From the IMG/VR virus record IMGVR_UViG_3300025687_000243, positions 1-27,822 of that record: a stretch of DNA of 27,822 nucleotides. The stretch is one strand, 5' to 3'. This document shows positions 70 to 10,564 of the stretch, piece after piece. Within the stretch, counting starts at the first letter, position 1. Every line of letters begins with the position of its first letter. The stretch is from a virus. The position numbers and the translations under genes are program-made. Below the pieces are notes generated by a model. The model searched no databases and was not told the origin of the DNA. It saw only the letters and a program-made list of their open reading frames with translations.

Positions 70-834
70 TTAGATGCCGTAGAATTCTTTGCGCAGGCTC
101 TCGCTGCCTGACCAGTAGAAACTGGACGGCTGCACCGGCACGATCGCCTTGGCTGTGTCCTTGTCGCAGTGCCGCAGGAAGGCTTCGATCCTGCCGATCT
201 GCACCTTGGCCTGCGCCAGCAGCTCGGTCGGATCACCGTCGGCCAACATGCTTGTCTTCTTCTCGCTGACGTACAGGAACCGCACGTCCATATTACCCTT
301 CGCCTTAGCATAAATAGCCCTTTGCAGCTGGTGTTCTGGCGACATGGTGCTTGGTATCCGCGAGGTCGATTTAAGATCGATCACCACCCCATGCTGCGGG
401 AACACCAGGTCGAGGTAGCCAATGACCGGGATCGACCAGCCCTCGCCCTTGGCGGTGATGCTGATCTTCTCTTGGTTGCTCTCGCCCTCTTCCACCTCTG
501 GGAACTCTGGCTTGCCAAATTCTTTCAGCTCTTCGATGGCGAGCTGCGCCATCGGCTTGATCCGGGCGCGCTCGGCGCTGGTCTTTTCGTCGCCGATCGG
601 GAACCGCTTGTCGAACTTGGCCAGCGCTCTGTCGATGCAAGCGGTCTCGCTGTCACCCATCAGGATCTGCACAACCGCATCCTCGATGCAAATCCCGCGC
701 CAGGCTGCCGCGCCCATCGGTGTGCGCAGGCCGTGCAGGTATTGCATGACCCAGACATCGGGCGCGTTGGCCCAGAGGTTAATGCTGGATGCAGACAGGT
801 GATCGATGTTGTGCTTGCTGAAACCGTCACTCAT
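70..834 (-). CDS. RecB/YqaJ-like PD-(D/E)XK exonuclease
   Basis: A 254-aa probable phage DNA exonuclease of the PD-(D/E)XK superfamily (RecB/Cas4/YqaJ type). Such enzymes chew DNA ends and usually work with a phage single-strand annealing protein. Visible motifs are an early helix with WRGICIEDAV (E51), GYLDLVF with the metal ligand D142, VVIDLKST giving D153-x-K155, and HQLQRAIYA giving the QxxxY helix (Q171, Y175). All core residues are present, so it should be active. I start it at 834, where the ATG overlaps the upstream stop by 8 bases. An ATG at 861 would add nine unconvincing residues (MKCWPTSCP). It is the last complete gene of the leftward early operon; a partner such as a RecT-like annealing protein would be expected beyond the edge. 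Membership of the superfamily is firm; the exact subfamily is not. Confidence 0.82.
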   Translation of the reverse strand: MSDGFSKHNIDHLSASSINLWANAPDVWVMQYLHGLRTPMGAAAWRGICIEDAVVQILMGDSETACIDRALAKFDKRFPIGDEKTSAERARIKPMAQLAIEELKEFGKPEFPEVEEGESNQEKISITAKGEGWSIPVIGYLDLVFPQHGVVIDLKSTSRIPSTMSPEHQLQRAIYAKAKGNMDVRFLYVSEKKTSMLADGDPTELLAQAKVQIGRIEAFLRHCDKDTAKAIVPVQPSSFYWSGSESLRKEFYGI

Positions 835-1063
835 CGGGCAGCTCGTCGGCCAGCATTTCAATCGCGTCGATCACGCACTGGATCTGCTCTTGGATCACGA
901 CATCCTGGGCGGCGTACTCAGCGGCGTCTAAAGCCTCTGGGTACGGGTCTTTCTTCACTTGGCCGAGCATGCGTATAGCCTCTCTCAGAGCGTGCTCTTG
1001 ATCTCTTCGCGCTTGCAGCAGCATTGCCAGCACGTCGTATGCGTCGTCAGAAGTTAGCTTCAT
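827..1063 (-). CDS. Unknown 78-aa helical acidic protein
   Basis: I do not recognise this protein. It is 78 aa, predicted almost entirely helical, with a heptad-like middle (AMLLQARRDQEHALREAIRM) and an acidic end (DELPDE). It has no signal peptide, membrane segment or cysteine pair. Its start overlaps the end of the upstream nuclease gene by 17 bases and its stop overlaps the start of the exonuclease gene, so it is translated between two nucleases. A role in their recombination or repair pathway is possible, but that rests on position only. Confidence 0.7.
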   Translation of the reverse strand: MKLTSDDAYDVLAMLLQARRDQEHALREAIRMLGQVKKDPYPEALDAAEYAAQDVVIQEQIQCVIDAIEMLADELPDE

Positions 1064-1430
1064 GTGCCATGATCTCCCTGGCTAGGTAACAGAAATCTTC
1101 GAATGAAATGTTGCAGCGGATGCCCTGCATCTCGACTACCACGCGGGTGGGCTGCCGATCGTAACGGTAAATGAGCGCGGGCCGCTTGTTTGTCTTGGCC
1201 GCTGCGGTTGTGACCTGCTTCCACCACTTGTCTGTGCCGCTGATCGGGCCATCGGCGTAGCGTTTCAGCTCAAGTTCAAACGGGAACGCCGGATCGTCGG
1301 GGATCAGGTCGCCATGCTCGGCCTCTTGATATTGACGCAGGTCTCGCTTGAAGCTGATGCCCAGTTCGAACAGCAGCATGTTGGCGACCTCGCGCTCAAA
1401 CTGCGCGCCCTTGGTTCTGCTGTTGGTCAT
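1047..1430 (-). CDS. Small PD-(D/E)XK endonuclease, Holliday-junction-resolvase-like
   Basis: A 127-aa protein with the layout of small phage PD-(D/E)XK endonucleases often annotated as Holliday-junction-resolvase-like. The N-terminus TKGAQFEREVANML supplies the first acidic residue (E13). HGDLIP gives the metal ligand D41, and FELELKRY gives the E54-x-K56 core. These are followed by the WWKQ helix and a strand-rich end (PALIYRYD). Its likely substrates are branched or nicked DNA intermediates in phage replication or recombination; that is inferred from the family. The start overlaps the HTH gene by ATGA. It shares one operon with a second PD-(D/E)XK nuclease, which fits a phage recombination module. 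The fold is confident; the exact substrate is not. Confidence 0.72.
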   Translation of the reverse strand: MTNSRTKGAQFEREVANMLLFELGISFKRDLRQYQEAEHGDLIPDDPAFPFELELKRYADGPISGTDKWWKQVTTAAAKTNKRPALIYRYDRQPTRVVVEMQGIRCNISFEDFCYLAREIMAHEANF

Positions 1431-1747
1431 CCGCCCAATTCCATCATGTCGTAAACGTCAACAGCGTCTGAATGTGTGTGCTGCCACCGCTTGGCGGTTG
1501 CTTTGCGAGCGCCACCTGCCCGCGCTTCGTTTACTGCGTCACGATTGAACCTGTGCGCCCAGCCCTTTCTGCGGATAGCCATCTTCGCAGTCGCCAAATT
1601 AATTCCCGCAGCCCTTGCGCACTCAACAATAGTGCAATCCCATCCGAACAAGTTTGCGATTTGCCATATACGAAACGCCGTGGCCTCACCCTGAATGCGC
1701 TTGTTGCGGCCCTGCGCGCTGCTTCCCCAAGTGTTTTCCGTTTTCAT
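1427..1747 (-). CDS. Helix-turn-helix DNA-binding protein, unknown role
   Basis: A 106-aa basic protein with a probable helix-turn-helix at about residues 36-62: a first helix around TIVECARAAG, a turn, then a recognition helix around LATAKMAIRRKGW. The ends look disordered (N-terminal SSAQGRNKR, C-terminal ARAGGARKATAKR). The shape resembles small phage proteins that bind DNA before replication or recombination, or minor regulators, but I cannot name a family. It starts one base after the stop of the small membrane protein gene and ends in an ATGA overlap with the nuclease gene. It could regulate the adjacent divergent promoters or help the nuclease load on DNA. Confidence 0.62.
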   Translation of the reverse strand: MKTENTWGSSAQGRNKRIQGEATAFRIWQIANLFGWDCTIVECARAAGINLATAKMAIRRKGWAHRFNRDAVNEARAGGARKATAKRWQHTHSDAVDVYDMMELGG

Positions 1748-1748
1748 A

Positions 1749-1907
1749 TCAAATCCCCCAGATCAGGTAGCCAAGCACGACGCCGACGAGCGTTGCCGCG
1801 CACAGCATCAGCACCAGGCTGACGCCGATCTGGATCAGGCCGCGCCACATGCGGTCATGCTGCGCATCCCACTGATCGTCCATCTGTTCCATGTCGCCGG
1901 GTTTCAT
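1749..1907 (-). CDS. Small single-pass membrane protein (52 aa)
   Basis: A 52-aa protein with an acidic, polar N-terminal half (GDMEQMDDQWDAQHDR) and one long hydrophobic segment at about residues 22-50 that includes GVVLGYLIWGI. There is no cleavage site, so it should stay in the inner membrane. The start overlaps the stop of the ribbon-helix-helix gene as ATGA, so the two are translationally coupled. A membrane protein encoded second in an early operon, before the nucleases, could alter the host envelope (for example superinfection exclusion) or act as an anti-host factor. That is inference; nothing in the sequence fixes its function. Confidence 0.65.
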   Translation of the reverse strand: MKPGDMEQMDDQWDAQHDRMWRGLIQIGVSLVLMLCAATLVGVVLGYLIWGI

Positions 1908-2065
1908 TGCTCTGCCTCCTGTTTCTTTTTGATGATCGCGCTGCGCCGCTTCATGGTGTCACGCACGATCGATGAGAAATCCTGACCCAAGGCGCGACAG
2001 ATGTCACGCCATTCGGCCTGCTCCTGCTTGGTCACGCGGACCTTCATGTAGGTGTCTTTGTTCAT
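1904..2065 (-). CDS. Ribbon-helix-helix (CopG/Arc-like) transcriptional regulator
   Basis: A 53-aa protein with the pattern of a ribbon-helix-helix repressor: one N-terminal strand with alternating residues (TYMKVRVT, 5-12), helix A (KQEQAEWRDICRALG), a short turn (QDF), then helix B (SSIVRDTMKRRSAII) and a lysine-rich tail. Proteins of this fold bind short palindromes as dimers through the strand. It is the first gene of the leftward operon. Two perfect TGTGGCCACA palindromes lie 14 and 59 bases upstream, so autoregulation and control of the opposite promoter are likely. The ATG at 2065 has no Shine-Dalgarno sequence, and the predicted transcription start falls at or next to the ATG, so the mRNA may be leaderless. 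The fold assignment is from pattern only. Confidence 0.75.
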   Translation of the reverse strand: MNKDTYMKVRVTKQEQAEWRDICRALGQDFSSIVRDTMKRRSAIIKKKQEAEQ

Positions 2066-2072
2066 GCCGGTG

Positions 2073-2101
2073 AGACTATGTGGCCACAGTGGTTAGGTCA
2101 A
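2073..2101 (-). promoter_or_regulatory. Predicted leftward promoter of the ribbon-helix-helix operon
   Basis: On the minus strand there is a TTGACC -35 box at 2101-2096 and, after a 17-base spacer, a weak -10 TAGTCT at 2078-2073. CATAGT two bases upstream is an alternative. One TGTGGCCACA palindrome fills the spacer end. The expected start point, about seven bases on, falls at 2065-2067, almost on the ATG. The weak -10 fits a promoter that is tightly controlled or needs help. Confidence 0.5.
2079..2088. promoter_or_regulatory. Operator-like palindrome, left copy
   Basis: TGTGGCCACA is a perfect 10-base palindrome. It sits against the -10 region of the leftward promoter, so a bound protein would block that promoter. 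An identical copy is centred 45 bases to the right. The ribbon-helix-helix protein encoded next door is the best candidate ligand; that link is inference. Confidence 0.62.
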
Positions 2102-2116
2102 GCATCATTTTCTATC

Positions 2117-2144
2117 TTGACCTTGTGGCCACACTGCTTATGTT
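2117..2144 (+). promoter_or_regulatory. Predicted rightward promoter of the small-gene operon
   Basis: TTGACC at 2117-2122 is a near-consensus -35 box. After a 16-base spacer, TATGTT at 2139-2144 serves as -10. The second TGTGGCCACA palindrome (2124-2133) lies entirely within the spacer. The predicted start is about 2151, leaving a 20-base leader with a good GGAGG ribosome binding site (2159-2163) before the ATG at 2172. Confidence 0.58.
2124..2133. promoter_or_regulatory. Operator-like palindrome, right copy
   Basis: This is a second perfect TGTGGCCACA palindrome, located between the -35 and -10 of the rightward promoter, a classic position for repression. It shares with the left copy the nearby TTGACC box in mirrored orientation, so the region is roughly dyad-symmetric. 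Confidence 0.62.
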
Positions 2145-2171
2145 GGGGGTGAAGAAACGGAGGACACGACA

Positions 2172-2468
2172 ATGCAAGTTAAAGTTAAAAACGTTCGTAT
2201 CTTTTTTGTGGATCGCGTTCCGCACAGCGGCTTTGGCATTATGGCGAACGATCAGGATGGCCGCGAGTATGTCCTACTCGACAGCGACGGCGATCATCGC
2301 GTCATGTCTTACGTCAAAGCCGACATGGTGGTCGATAAGATCAAGGCCGCAGGAAACATGGTGTGCCTGGAGCATTGGGACGTGCGTGCGCCTTACGGCA
2401 CTCAGGCATGGCTGATCGACGGTATGGAACAGCGCCAGATCGAAGACGAGCGTTTTGGATATTGCTGA
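2172..2468 (+). CDS. Unknown 98-aa protein, first gene of the rightward operon
   Basis: I do not recognise this protein. It is 98 aa with a strand-rich start (QVKVKNVRIFFVD), a central segment suggesting a small beta fold (REYVLLDSDGDHRV), and an acidic helix at the end (EQRQIEDERFGYC). There is no membrane segment or signal. The ATG has GGAGG eight bases upstream. As the first gene after the operator-controlled rightward promoter it should be the most strongly made product of this operon, as expected of an early host-takeover or anti-defence protein. That role is inferred from position only. Confidence 0.78.
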   Translation: MQVKVKNVRIFFVDRVPHSGFGIMANDQDGREYVLLDSDGDHRVMSYVKADMVVDKIKAAGNMVCLEHWDVRAPYGTQAWLIDGMEQRQIEDERFGYC

Positions 2469-3432: not shown

Positions 3433-3671
3433 GTGAACACCGATCATTCCCAGAAGCCGCCAATGGTCTGCCACAAGCGCCGATGGAGGCTGAACTGTGG
3501 GCGGCTGGCTGCGACCTAGAGACCGCCCGCTTTGTCGCCAAGCAACTTGACCGAGAAGGCTACAGGCTCATCAAGCCACACGATCTGTGGACCGACCACA
3601 AGCATTTTGAGGGCGACCGCAAGTATGCCTTACGGCAAATCCTCAAGTGGATTTTGGGAGAAAAGACATGA
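3429..3671 (+). CDS. Unknown 80-aa protein
   Basis: An 80-aa protein starting MSEHRSFPEAANGLPQ; an upstream ATG at 3354 lies inside the previous gene and is not favoured. The central part (EAELWAAGCDLETARFVAKQLDREGYRLI) reads as two helices. It then has a strand and an aromatic-rich end (HDLWTDHKHFEG, LRQILKWILGEKT). The function is unknown. It is coupled to both neighbours by ATGA overlaps. Confidence 0.66.
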   Translation: MSEHRSFPEAANGLPQAPMEAELWAAGCDLETARFVAKQLDREGYRLIKPHDLWTDHKHFEGDRKYALRQILKWILGEKT

Positions 3672-3919
3672 GTAGCTGGCGATACCAGATCATGCAGCAC
3701 ACCGACGACAGCGGCGATCCATATCTGGCCGTGCATGAATTCTACACCCTACACGATGGCAAGGAAGGCTTTACAGAACGCCCGGTGCCGATTGAGGCCG
3801 ATAGCGTAAAAGACCTGCGCATGGCCCTGCTTGACATCCTGCGCGACCTAGAACGCCACGGCGTCAGAGACGCCAAGACCGGCGCGCCTATACAGCCCGC
3901 AAGTTCTGAAGACCACTAA
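3668..3919 (+). CDS. Unknown 83-aa protein, last gene of the rightward operon
   Basis: An 83-aa protein starting MSSWRYQIMQHTDDSG. Two strands (WRYQIMQH and LAVHEFYTLHD) are followed by TERPVPIEADSVKDL and a helix with alternating Leu (RMALLDILRDLERHG). This is the typical pattern of small phage proteins with a short beta sheet and one helix; I cannot assign a function. I start it at 3668 (ATGA overlap, GGGAG upstream) instead of 3647. Its last 32 bases overlap the end of the oppositely oriented phosphoesterase gene. Confidence 0.7.
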   Translation: MSSWRYQIMQHTDDSGDPYLAVHEFYTLHDGKEGFTERPVPIEADSVKDLRMALLDILRDLERHGVRDAKTGAPIQPASSEDH

Positions 3920-7597: not shown

Positions 7598-7866
7598 ATG
7601 CCACCTCTTGTGAAGATGAAGGCAACGCCAGCCGTGACGACGATCCAGAACACCCGCTCGGCAAAGCGCAGCATCTGGCCGTTGCTGCCGACCCTGTTCT
7701 CAATCAGCGTGATGCGGCGCCCGTGATGCGCCTGCTCTTGGTCCAGGTTGTCCATGCGCTTGAACAGTGTGATCATCCGTTCTTCCATGCGCGCGAGCGC
7801 GACGATAGCCTGCCCGACCTCATCCAGTTTCTTTTCGATGCGCTCCAGGCGGGCCTCTTCGCTCAT
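7594..7866 (-). CDS. Coiled-coil single-pass membrane protein, holin-like
   Basis: A 90-aa protein with an N-terminal heptad region (RLERIEKKLDEVGQAIVAL, RMEERMITLFKRMDNLDQ), a further coil (RITLIENRVGSN) and a C-terminal membrane segment at about 68-85 (RVFWIVVTAGVAFIFT). This is the shape of XhlA/BhlA-type holin-associated proteins. It lies three genes upstream of the spanins, and the structural protein gene between it and the endolysin does not break the cassette. It is the best holin candidate in the window, because no protein with two or three membrane passes is seen. Classical holin activity is inferred. Confidence 0.68.
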   Translation of the reverse strand: MSEEARLERIEKKLDEVGQAIVALARMEERMITLFKRMDNLDQEQAHHGRRITLIENRVGSNGQMLRFAERVFWIVVTAGVAFIFTRGGM

Positions 7867-8047: not shown

Positions 8048-10564
8048 TCACAACTCCGATGAAGCGGTTAAGGTAATGTCTAATGGAGAGTCAAATGCTC
8101 CAGTTCGCCTAAAGGCTGCTGCATCAACATCAGCGACCTGAGTTGCAATCGTCCCAGTTCCTAAATTCGTTGATGCTACAGTAGGTGCCGCTCGTTTTGT
8201 TTGCTTAAAACAATATGTAGCTTGAAAATAATCATTAGCATTGGCGGTGACTGTGTTATGATAAGCCGAGCCATAAAGCCTCCCTACCTCATAATACCTC
8301 TGACACAGCGCCAACTCCTGCCCATACGATCTATGCTCAAATGGGGTGCTTACGTCGCCTGCTTCTAGTTGGACGCCGGTGATGTCCCAAGTGGCGTTCA
8401 GGGTTTCGATGATGTTGGTCGCGCCCGTTGCGCCAAAGATGCTGGAGGTGCCTGTCCACGCTCCCGCCGCTGCTACACGGCTTGACCCCATACCTATTTG
8501 AAATCTTAAAGCCAAGCCACGACCATTGTCAGTTAGCCACGTGCCTGTGGTGTCACCTGCAATGGTAATGGTTTTGTATTCCCACGTGTTTGCCGAAGAA
8601 ATTGAGTAGGTAAACGGGTATGCTCGATCGTTGGCAGAGTTTCCCAAAGCCCCACCAAAAGTTCCGGTCAAAGAAGACCGCACCCAAAAAGACAGCGTTA
8701 CATCTTTGGCAGAGCTTTTGCCAAAATCCAAATCCGCTGCGTTAAATCCTTCTACAAACTGCTGAAGCAAATAGTTTTGCGTAGCACCAATCGACGCATC
8801 GGCTGTGGTCACAGTAATCCGCAAGGAGTTTGTAAAACCAGCGGGGGCGTCTGTGGTTTGATCTACGGTAAAAACACCGTCTGTAGCTTGCCCAGAGCCA
8901 ATCCATCTATCCACTGTGTAGATATTAGCCGTGGTGTCAATCGTCACCGCCGCCCCGGCGTTCCGCTGGTCGATGACCATCGCGCCGTTGATGATCTTGT
9001 TGCGGTTGCCAAGAGAGCCAGCGGATGGGTAATTGTTTCCGTTGACCGTCAAAGACGTTGTGGTGACCGAGGTGAAGGTCGGATTGACGTTGCTGAACGA
9101 TGCGGCCGACCAAGCTGAGCCATCGTAAACAAACATCTGATCGGTGGCTGTGTTGAAATACAGATCGCCAGCCTGCAAGGCCGAGCTGTCAGTACGGGTC
9201 GTCGGATCTGTCGCAGACGGCCCGACATACACATCGGCAAAGTTTGTCACGTCGGCCACGTTCGTCGCCACCGTCGTCACGTCCGCGCTGATGCCAGCGA
9301 CCGTGGTGACATCAGCGTCAATGGCGGCGACCGCGCTGACATCCGCGATGTTCGTGGCGACTGTGCCGATGTCAGTCGCATCGCCAGCGACTGCCGTCAC
9401 ATCCGCGCTGATGCCAGCAACCGTCGTGACGTTGGCACTAATCCCCGCGACAGTCGTCACACCGGCGCTAATCCCGGCAACCGTTGTCACATTAGCACTG
9501 ATGCCGGCCACCGTACCGATGTCGGTCGCATCGCCTGCAACAGCCGTCACGTCGGAGCTGATCCCAGCAACTGTGTTCACGTTTGAAATGTTCGACGCCA
9601 CCGTGCCGATGTCGGTCGCGTCAGCCGCCACAGCCGTCACGTCGCTGTCGATGCCGGCGACCGTGCTTACATCAGCCGCGATCGCCGCCACTGTGTTGAT
9701 GGCGGTCTGCTCGGTCGGCGACGGCGCCGTGAATTTCCAAGTCGTGTTGCCGAGGTCGTAAACCTTCAGCCGGTTGTCGGTCGTATTCCAGTACAGCGCG
9801 CCGTCGATCAGCGTGTTGCCATCGTTGTCGGTCGCCGGGTCGCTGCTCTTCGCGCCCAGGTAGCGGTCATCGAACTGGTCATACAGCGTCGTGAACGCGC
9901 TCACGTCCAGCAGCAGATCCCACTTGGCCACGTCGGTGTTGGTCGAGATCGGCAGCGAGCCGCTCGACGTGTGCGCCGTGTTGCAGAAATACAGGTTGTC
10001 GTTGCCGCCGTCCTTGACGATGTCGCGCTGGTTGTAGGCCGTCGATGCCGCCCAGTTGCCGCGATAGGTGCCAAGTTCCTGTGCAATGCTGAGATCGCCG
10101 GCGCTGTCGAAGGCAAAGATCTTGTTGGCCCGATTGGCCGCCGAGATCGTAAATTCAGAACCGGCAATCGTGTTGGTGCGCGATGCCTTGATTGTGCGGT
10201 CCAAGGTTTCTTCGTGCTGCTGCACCATAAAGGTCAGCTTGTCTAGCGCAGCTTCCAGGCTGTCAGCCGGGAACGGGTCATTCGGCACGATGTCCAGCTC
10301 TTGCACCAGATCCTGTTCGCGCAAGATCACCAGCGTTTCGCCAGTGGCAGGCGCTGTCAGCATGGTCACGTTTCCGCCGCCCGCGCTGCCGACGCCGCTC
10401 ACCGTGTAGTCCGATGTGATCGTCTTGACTGTCTCGGTGCCGTTGGCCGCGCGCACGATCACCGTCAGATCGTCTTCGTCGAAGATCTTGTAGGTGTACG
10501 GGAAGACGGTCGTGGAACCGTTGCCTGCGTAGCTAACGCGGTTTGTGCTGCTGCTGACTGTCAT
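8048..10564 (-). CDS. Tail fibre protein with T7 gp17-like N-terminus
   Basis: An 838-aa fibre (T7 gp17 is 553 aa). Residues 1-135 match the T7-type attachment domain (TVSSSTNRVSYAGNGSTTVF; LVILREQDLVQELD; AALDKLTFMVQQHEETLDR), which docks the fibre on the tail. Residues 165-285 hold segments such as NLYFCNTAHTSSGSLP typical of fibre shafts. Residues 291-440 are fifteen 10-residue repeats of the type V-T-x-V-A-G-I-S-x-x. From about 515 (SLGNRNKIINGAMVIDQRN) comes a C-terminal beta-rich receptor-binding part with a jelly-roll-like pattern. Its last 290 codons are clearly AT-richer than the rest, as if the tip was exchanged. It overlaps the 1080-aa gene by ATGA. The role in host recognition is confident; the receptor is unknown. 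Confidence 0.9.
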   Translation of the reverse strand: MTVSSSTNRVSYAGNGSTTVFPYTYKIFDEDDLTVIVRAANGTETVKTITSDYTVSGVGSAGGGNVTMLTAPATGETLVILREQDLVQELDIVPNDPFPADSLEAALDKLTFMVQQHEETLDRTIKASRTNTIAGSEFTISAANRANKIFAFDSAGDLSIAQELGTYRGNWAASTAYNQRDIVKDGGNDNLYFCNTAHTSSGSLPISTNTDVAKWDLLLDVSAFTTLYDQFDDRYLGAKSSDPATDNDGNTLIDGALYWNTTDNRLKVYDLGNTTWKFTAPSPTEQTAINTVAAIAADVSTVAGIDSDVTAVAADATDIGTVASNISNVNTVAGISSDVTAVAGDATDIGTVAGISANVTTVAGISAGVTTVAGISANVTTVAGISADVTAVAGDATDIGTVATNIADVSAVAAIDADVTTVAGISADVTTVATNVADVTNFADVYVGPSATDPTTRTDSSALQAGDLYFNTATDQMFVYDGSAWSAASFSNVNPTFTSVTTTSLTVNGNNYPSAGSLGNRNKIINGAMVIDQRNAGAAVTIDTTANIYTVDRWIGSGQATDGVFTVDQTTDAPAGFTNSLRITVTTADASIGATQNYLLQQFVEGFNAADLDFGKSSAKDVTLSFWVRSSLTGTFGGALGNSANDRAYPFTYSISSANTWEYKTITIAGDTTGTWLTDNGRGLALRFQIGMGSSRVAAAGAWTGTSSIFGATGATNIIETLNATWDITGVQLEAGDVSTPFEHRSYGQELALCQRYYEVGRLYGSAYHNTVTANANDYFQATYCFKQTKRAAPTVASTNLGTGTIATQVADVDAAAFRRTGAFDSPLDITLTASSEL
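9245..9694 (-). repeat. Fifteen 10-residue coding repeats in the tail-fibre shaft
   Basis: Codons 291-440 of the fibre follow a strict 10-residue period with unit V-T-T-V-A-G-I-S-A-D and variants (V-T-A-V-A-G-D-A-T-D, I-G-T-V-A-T-N-I-A-D). At DNA level the 30-base units have diverged, mostly at third positions, so the repeat is selected as protein. It forms an elongated shaft; unit number could vary between relatives. Confidence 0.88.

Follow-up and report, generated by a model that had tools for sequence, protein, structure and literature searches.

Where two divergent viral operons carry the same perfect palindrome in each of their promoters, the question arises which protein reads these sites, and whether it is encoded by the small ribbon-helix-helix (RHH) gene that opens one of the two operons. 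The locus lies in an IMG/VR virus record of 27,822 bases (the window, i.e., the whole stretch of DNA that was analysed), a fragment of a T7-like podovirus in which a head-tail adaptor, the major head protein, two tail-tube proteins, internal virion proteins, a tail fibre, and an endolysin are recognisable. Two segments of the window (3668-3872 and 7625-7851) show 68% identity to the Roseobacter phages CRP-821/822/831 and CRP-823, indicating a Rhodobacteraceae host. The divergent region and the operons on either side contain the following features:

70 to 834, minus strand: nuclease-like protein (PHROG 1706, CRISPR/Cas-associated), end of the visible leftward operon
1047 to 1430, minus strand: RusA-like Holliday junction resolvase, leftward operon
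1427 to 1747, minus strand: third gene of the leftward operon, 106 aa, putatively helix-turn-helix-like as judged by eye
1749 to 1907, minus strand: second gene of the leftward operon, small; its start overlaps the stop of the RHH gene
1904 to 2065, minus strand: small RHH-type regulator gene, 53 aa (MNKDTYMKVRVTKQEQAEWRDICRALGQDFSSIVRDTMKRR...), with weak but consistent RHH matches and model helices
2073 to 2078, minus strand: -10 box TAGTCT of the leftward (RHH) promoter, spacer of 17 bp, 7 nt before the ATG
2079 to 2088, no strand: candidate operator TGTGGCCACA (core GTGGCCAC) of the leftward promoter, within the spacer and immediately next to the -10 box
2096 to 2101, minus strand: -35 box TTGACC of the leftward promoter; TTGAC is kept in all relatives
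2117 to 2122, plus strand: -35 box TTGACC of the rightward promoter
2124 to 2133, no strand: candidate operator TGTGGCCACA of the divergent rightward promoter, in the spacer directly downstream of the -35 box
2139 to 2144, plus strand: -10 box TATGTT of the rightward promoter, spacer of 16 bp
2159 to 2163, plus strand: Shine-Dalgarno sequence GGAGG of the first rightward gene; none of comparable strength at the RHH gene
2172 to 2468, plus strand: first rightward gene (P0002), 98 aa; relatives without the RHH gene have no operators

As the original prediction had it, two identical palindromes lie 45 bp apart, centre to centre (TGTGGCCACA at 2079-2088 and 2124-2133), one in each of two divergent promoters that both use TTGACC (plus strand 2117-2122, minus strand 2101-2096). 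The further claim that the palindrome is absent elsewhere in the window was borne out by the lack of any other exact copy in the 27,822 bases; one copy with a single mismatch lies at 8804, within a tail-fibre gene. The decamer as the unit of recognition stood only in part: the window does hold two exact copies, but the outer bases vary among relatives, and the conserved core is thus the 8-bp word GTGGCCAC. Of 400 windows simulated with matching dinucleotide composition, 8 contained an identical 10-bp palindrome pair within 100 bp, and the pair by itself is therefore only a ~2% event, suggestive and not conclusive; what settles the matter is its conservation in relatives.

Regarding the promoters themselves, the rightward one (TTGACC-16-TATGTT, 2117 to 2144) scores sigma70-like, and the leftward one (TTGACC-17-TAGTCT, 2101 to 2073) has a weak -10 box that matches at 3/6 positions. 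The -35 boxes also make an 8-bp inverted repeat (AGGTCAAG/CTTGACCT) round a 13-bp AT-rich centre (window 2095-2123), which may merely reflect paired promoters.

Conservation of the sites with the RHH gene

Relatives of the RHH gene were found at seven viral-contig loci by protein search, one of which (L003) is near-identical to the window at this region, and in the Sulfitobacter phage phiGT1 by a search of a phage collection. All eight, the isolated phage phiGT1 included, carry two copies of GTGGCCAC within 90 bp upstream of the RHH gene; by chance, two copies within 150 bp upstream would be expected at ~5e-6 per phage. None of the eight kept the gene without the sites, the loss that the original prediction had singled out as speaking against it. 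In five contigs whose sole link to this locus is a relative of P0002, in contrast, neither the word nor the RHH gene occurs anywhere in the whole record (0/5 for each). Across the sequences compared, it is thus the RHH gene that the sites accompany, not its right-hand neighbour.

This distribution bears on the possibility that the palindromes are read by some other factor, such as a host regulator or a GGCC/TGGCCA methylase that uses them as an epigenetic switch, with the RHH gene a mere neighbour. TGGCCA and GGCC are known methylase targets, and the RHH operon of phiGT1 does encode a cytosine methylase. However, the sites track the RHH gene rather than the partner gene, they persist while the partner genes differ between phages, and distant phages with unrelated neighbours (see below) have nothing in common here but an RHH-like gene and the word, and we consider a different reader very improbable.

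The arrangement within the promoters is conserved as well. In the window and all relatives, the operator lies between the -35 and -10 boxes of the regulator's own promoter, with the layout TTGAC-N9-operator in the window, L004, L005, L006, L035, and phiGT1 and with N0 in L007 and L038, while in the partner promoter the operator follows 3 bases after the first five of the -35 box at all tabulated loci, including phiGT1. With every operator thus held in conserved register to the -35 box of its promoter, a model is favoured in which each dimer would block its own promoter.

The genes on either side are far more variable. On the partner side, the place that P0002 has in the window is taken in L004, L005, and L007 by a different small gene with an ERF-like recombination gene behind it (as judged by eye), by yet another gene in L006, and by an operon with ERF, SSB, and NinB in phiGT1; the RHH operon, in turn, contains the RusA-like resolvase and the nuclease in the window and methylases in phiGT1. 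Retention of two operators while the flanking operons are exchanged is the pattern expected of a dual early-operon repressor. In L009, L011, L012, and L013, which have no RHH gene, a different small gene (HTH-like by eye) seems to lie divergently upstream of the P0002 relative, and the regulator cassette seems as if swapped.

Bacterial genomes scanned with the RHH alignment and the operator pattern gave no match, and no prophage or host version was therefore found. In tblastn searches against phages and plasmids, phiGT1 was the only significant match to the window RHH protein, and the proteins of L038, L031, L025, and L027 had no significant match.

The candidate repressor and the start of its mRNA

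The claim that an RHH gene opens the leftward operon was supported: the gene is first in order and encodes 53 aa, its own RHH family match being weak and the supporting evidence in agreement with it. The window protein matches the PHROG 'Arc-like repressor' family (E 0.043) and RelB/DinJ (E 0.045) weakly, its Pfam and PDB sequence matches are all below the cut-offs, and the sequence search against PDB gave no match to Arc. For the relatives, the best Pfam family is the NikA-like PF21983, which is matched by 3/6 A2 members of the phage RHH set (best E 0.002), and no relative departs from K8 and R10 in the strand. An AlphaFold model places helices at 13-25 and 30-52, i.e., at the RHH helix positions, with the strand (5-11) unformed in the monomer. 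Its neighbours in Foldseek/VIA-align are mostly RHH antitoxins (AtaR, KacA, RelB), the RelB DBD, and ParG, all of them weak (Z 2.4-4.6); the DinJ-, RelB-, and AtaR-like matches were used as evidence for the fold only. Taken together, the weak family matches, the NikA-like score of the relatives, the model fold, and the distant operator-linked proteins described below make it very likely that the 53-aa protein is an RHH protein.

Since RHH antitoxins (AtaR, KacA, RelB) are the best fold matches, the protein could in principle belong to a toxin-antitoxin pair, as an antitoxin in control of its own operon. RHH antitoxins usually bear a toxin-binding tail, however, and at 53 aa the protein hardly extends past the RHH core; moreover, the RusA-like neighbour is no toxin gene, and the second operator would regulate a separate operon. 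An antitoxin function is accordingly extremely unlikely in our assessment.

A feature that was not part of the original prediction concerns the start of the repressor mRNA. In all eight phages tested, the RHH ATG directly follows the promoter, with the -10 box ending 6-7 nt before it, and transcription would for this reason be expected to start at the AUG itself. In addition, the RHH start shows weaker Shine-Dalgarno pairing than the start of the partner gene in 7/7 comparisons, although for L007 this contrast is small (-3.8 vs -4.3 kcal/mol). From the -10 spacing and the lack of a strong ribosome site, the repressor mRNA is predicted to be leaderless, which we regard as probable. One annotation is affected: the annotated start of phiGT1_49 (31703) lies upstream of the operator at 31730, with the operator and the -10 box inside the annotated CDS (L034:19953-20001 = record 31703-31751). 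If the start is placed at the conserved ATG after the -10 box (31751), the annotation of this gene probably reaches 48 nt too far at the 5' end. Leaderless regulators are already known, for example, lambda CI, tetR of Tn1721, and acuR in Rhodobacter (PMC3017554), and the present case would hence be a parallel and not the first.

The precedent of a leaderless mRNA for lambda CI (cited in PMC3017554), along with a divergent two-promoter layout that resembles immunity regions, raises the possibility of a lysogeny master repressor (CI-like) instead of a lytic shut-off device (Cro/Arc-like). This appears unlikely, as the RHH gene heads a recombination/replication-type operon behind a promoter that looks activator-free, phiGT1 as the closest cultured relative is described as lytic (PMC10386132), and no integrase was seen within the window, itself a genome fragment.

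We consider it highly probable that the RHH protein is a negatively autoregulated repressor of both early operons acting via GTGGCCAC, as in Arc and MobC. The original suggestion that one small dimer could shut both operons gains support from the eight of eight relatives with sites and from the DNA-only scans leading to the gene. In the scheme that we infer from sequence, which extends to binding, dimer stoichiometry, repression, timing, and the leaderless start, the 53-aa protein would be dimeric and would read GTGGCCAC with a two-stranded ribbon whose K8 and R10 face the DNA, one dimer occupying each palindrome. Dimers seated in both -35/-10 spacers would keep RNA polymerase off, either by a steric block or by blocking open-complex formation. 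After infection, both activator-free promoters would fire, with the repressor as the first leftward protein made; upon accumulation, it would shut its own operon (recombination/replication-type genes) as well as the opposite one, and an mRNA that starts at the AUG would hold its dose low.

Distant loci and operator spacing

The word could also be used as a probe on its own. A strict DNA-only pattern (operator pair plus two TTGAC boxes) hit six viral contigs, all of which carry the RHH gene (6/6), and a relaxed version raised this to 8/8 by adding the contig of L007 and L038. The latter, a 29.9-kb contig, had been missed by the protein search and was found via the operator pattern; at the predicted place, it encodes a 50-aa protein (MRDTFIKIRASKDERDRW...) with 31% identity to the window protein and an E of 2e-5 against the family profile. 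The bare pair alone (TGTGGCCACA-N20-50-TGTGGCCACA) selected 21 contigs, in 9 of which it lies within reading frames, while 11 of the other 12 have an RHH-like frame starting at the sites; in the twelfth (L033), the sequence begins at the sites. The pairs inside reading frames, mostly long ones with tail-fibre-like or coding repeats (L014, L016, L018, L020, L022, L023, L024, L028, and L029), were set aside. In L014, L016, L018, L022, L023, and L029, they occur 33-51 bp apart in tail-fibre-like frames of short repeats, and such in-frame pairs are a coding repeat unrelated to the operator.

One profile scoring of these distant proteins was circular, because the profile included most of them. Independent support comes from L021 and L027, which reach 39.8 and 35 bits against the Pfam NikA-like family (cut-off 27; L025 falls just under), from matches of L015 and L019 to the PHROG 'Arc-like repressor' family, and from an earlier profile, built without the distant proteins, that had already picked L021 and L025. 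The word thus accompanies NikA/Arc-like RHH genes of greater divergence as well, in unrelated phages of which some have four sites, and these distant members presumably read the same word. In four actinophage-like contigs (L019:8291-8390, L030:4068-4169, L031:9647-9747, and L032:9277-9342), three or four copies of GTGGCCAC precede a small RHH-like gene of the RKFRAP... type, and in L019, L030, and L031 a TAnnnT-like box lies 6-7 nt before the ATG. Five plasmid genes of the RHH type with kinship to L021, mainly relaxosome genes and some with K-x-R, had no GTGGCCAC within 600 bp (0/5), a count that excludes L048 (mobilisation region of a pig E. coli plasmid); the K-x-R strand alone therefore does not define the operator code.

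Operator spacings in the close family are 45 bp (three phages), 35, 34, 34, and 66 bp, i.e., 34-66 bp overall. All of them equal n x 10.5 + 2.5 to 3.5 bp, a coherence reached in about 0.1-0.3% of random-spacing trials and tighter from operator to operator than from -35 to -35, and the actinophage-like loci with three or four sites show steps of mainly 23-24 and 34-35 bp in the same phase. One variant of the phase test, run on three values, involved a non-integer spacing and was disregarded. Such phasing could mean that dimers on the separate palindromes touch, directly or via a tight bend, and cooperatively shut both promoters, which would add to the repressor reading rather than replace it. 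On the other hand, the operator distance varies by three turns, a phase of ~0.3 turn leaves the dimers off a common face, the 30 and 50 bp spacings in L021, L025, and L027 break the phase, and single-site repression alone would explain why each operator stays in register with the -35 box beside it. With so few independent lineages and these three exceptions, helical phase was rejected as proof of bridging; since the phase test was in addition devised after the data had been seen, bridging is kept as a rival reading that we find rather doubtful.

A broader proposal is put forward tentatively: GTGGCCAC might be the operator of a phage RHH clade (K-x-R ribbon) spread across unrelated phages (Rhodobacteraceae podoviruses, actinophage-like, and other contigs), with leaderless autorepressor genes, helically phased cooperative multi-site operators, and cross-repression between phages that share the word, i.e., a shared immunity code.

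Known systems and implications for marine phages

Arc, itself an RHH protein of 53 aa, has a single pseudo-symmetric operator between the -35 and -10 boxes and also affects the divergent mnt promoter. In the immI region of the Salmonella phage P22, it is encoded together with ant behind Pant and is self-repressed during lytic growth (PMC12111858). The window shares with it a small protein, very likely of RHH type, and a (here predicted) self-repressing circuit, but sequence homology goes no further than the weak match to PHROG 'Arc-like repressor', a predicted leaderless mRNA and two perfect palindromes at separate positions set the window apart, and its regulator would control recombination/replication-type operons, whereas Arc controls an antirepressor. 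A second parallel is MobC, the RHH protein of the IncU plasmid RA3 relaxosome, which is encoded first in its operon and represses its own promoter via a palindrome between -35 and -10 (PMC4175270). As in the window, the operator sits in the -35/-10 spacer of the promoter of a regulator that comes first; unlike in the window, this operator (AGCGTCTG/CCGCCGCT) is imperfect and unrelated, a single promoter is concerned, a ribosome binding site is present, and the role is in conjugation. The NikA-like family PF21983 (R64 NikA and relatives), the best Pfam family for the phage RHH set, differs in that NikA acts at the plasmid oriT and that the plasmid relatives checked are without nearby GTGGCCAC.

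Among viruses of archaea, SvtR of SIRV1 is a small RHH repressor of its own and other viral promoters (PMC5569661), but it uses imperfect inverted repeats and is thought to polymerise along DNA from upstream sites. The leaderless acuR of Rhodobacter sphaeroides, whose transcript begins at the AUG and whose operator overlaps the promoter (PMC3017554), comes from the same bacterial class as the likely phage host; in contrast to the window regulator, it is an acrylate-induced host gene of the TetR family. No report of GTGGCCAC as a phage operator was found in the open literature searched, the limited coverage of which makes this weak evidence; papers that combine the word with phage, repressor, and binding site turned out to be unrelated eukaryotic work, and the 2023 phiGT1 paper makes no mention of a promoter or repressor.

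In sum, the locus offers a candidate regulator-operator pair for a marine phage group whose early gene control appears uncharacterised. A scan of the DNA is enough to locate the short perfect word, and such blind scans led to RHH genes whose divergence puts them beyond the reach of standard searches. Should the code hold true, the early operons of many uncultured phages could be annotated directly along with their regulator, and an 8-bp word with its 53-aa protein would constitute a minimal repressor system for experiments in marine Alphaproteobacteria.
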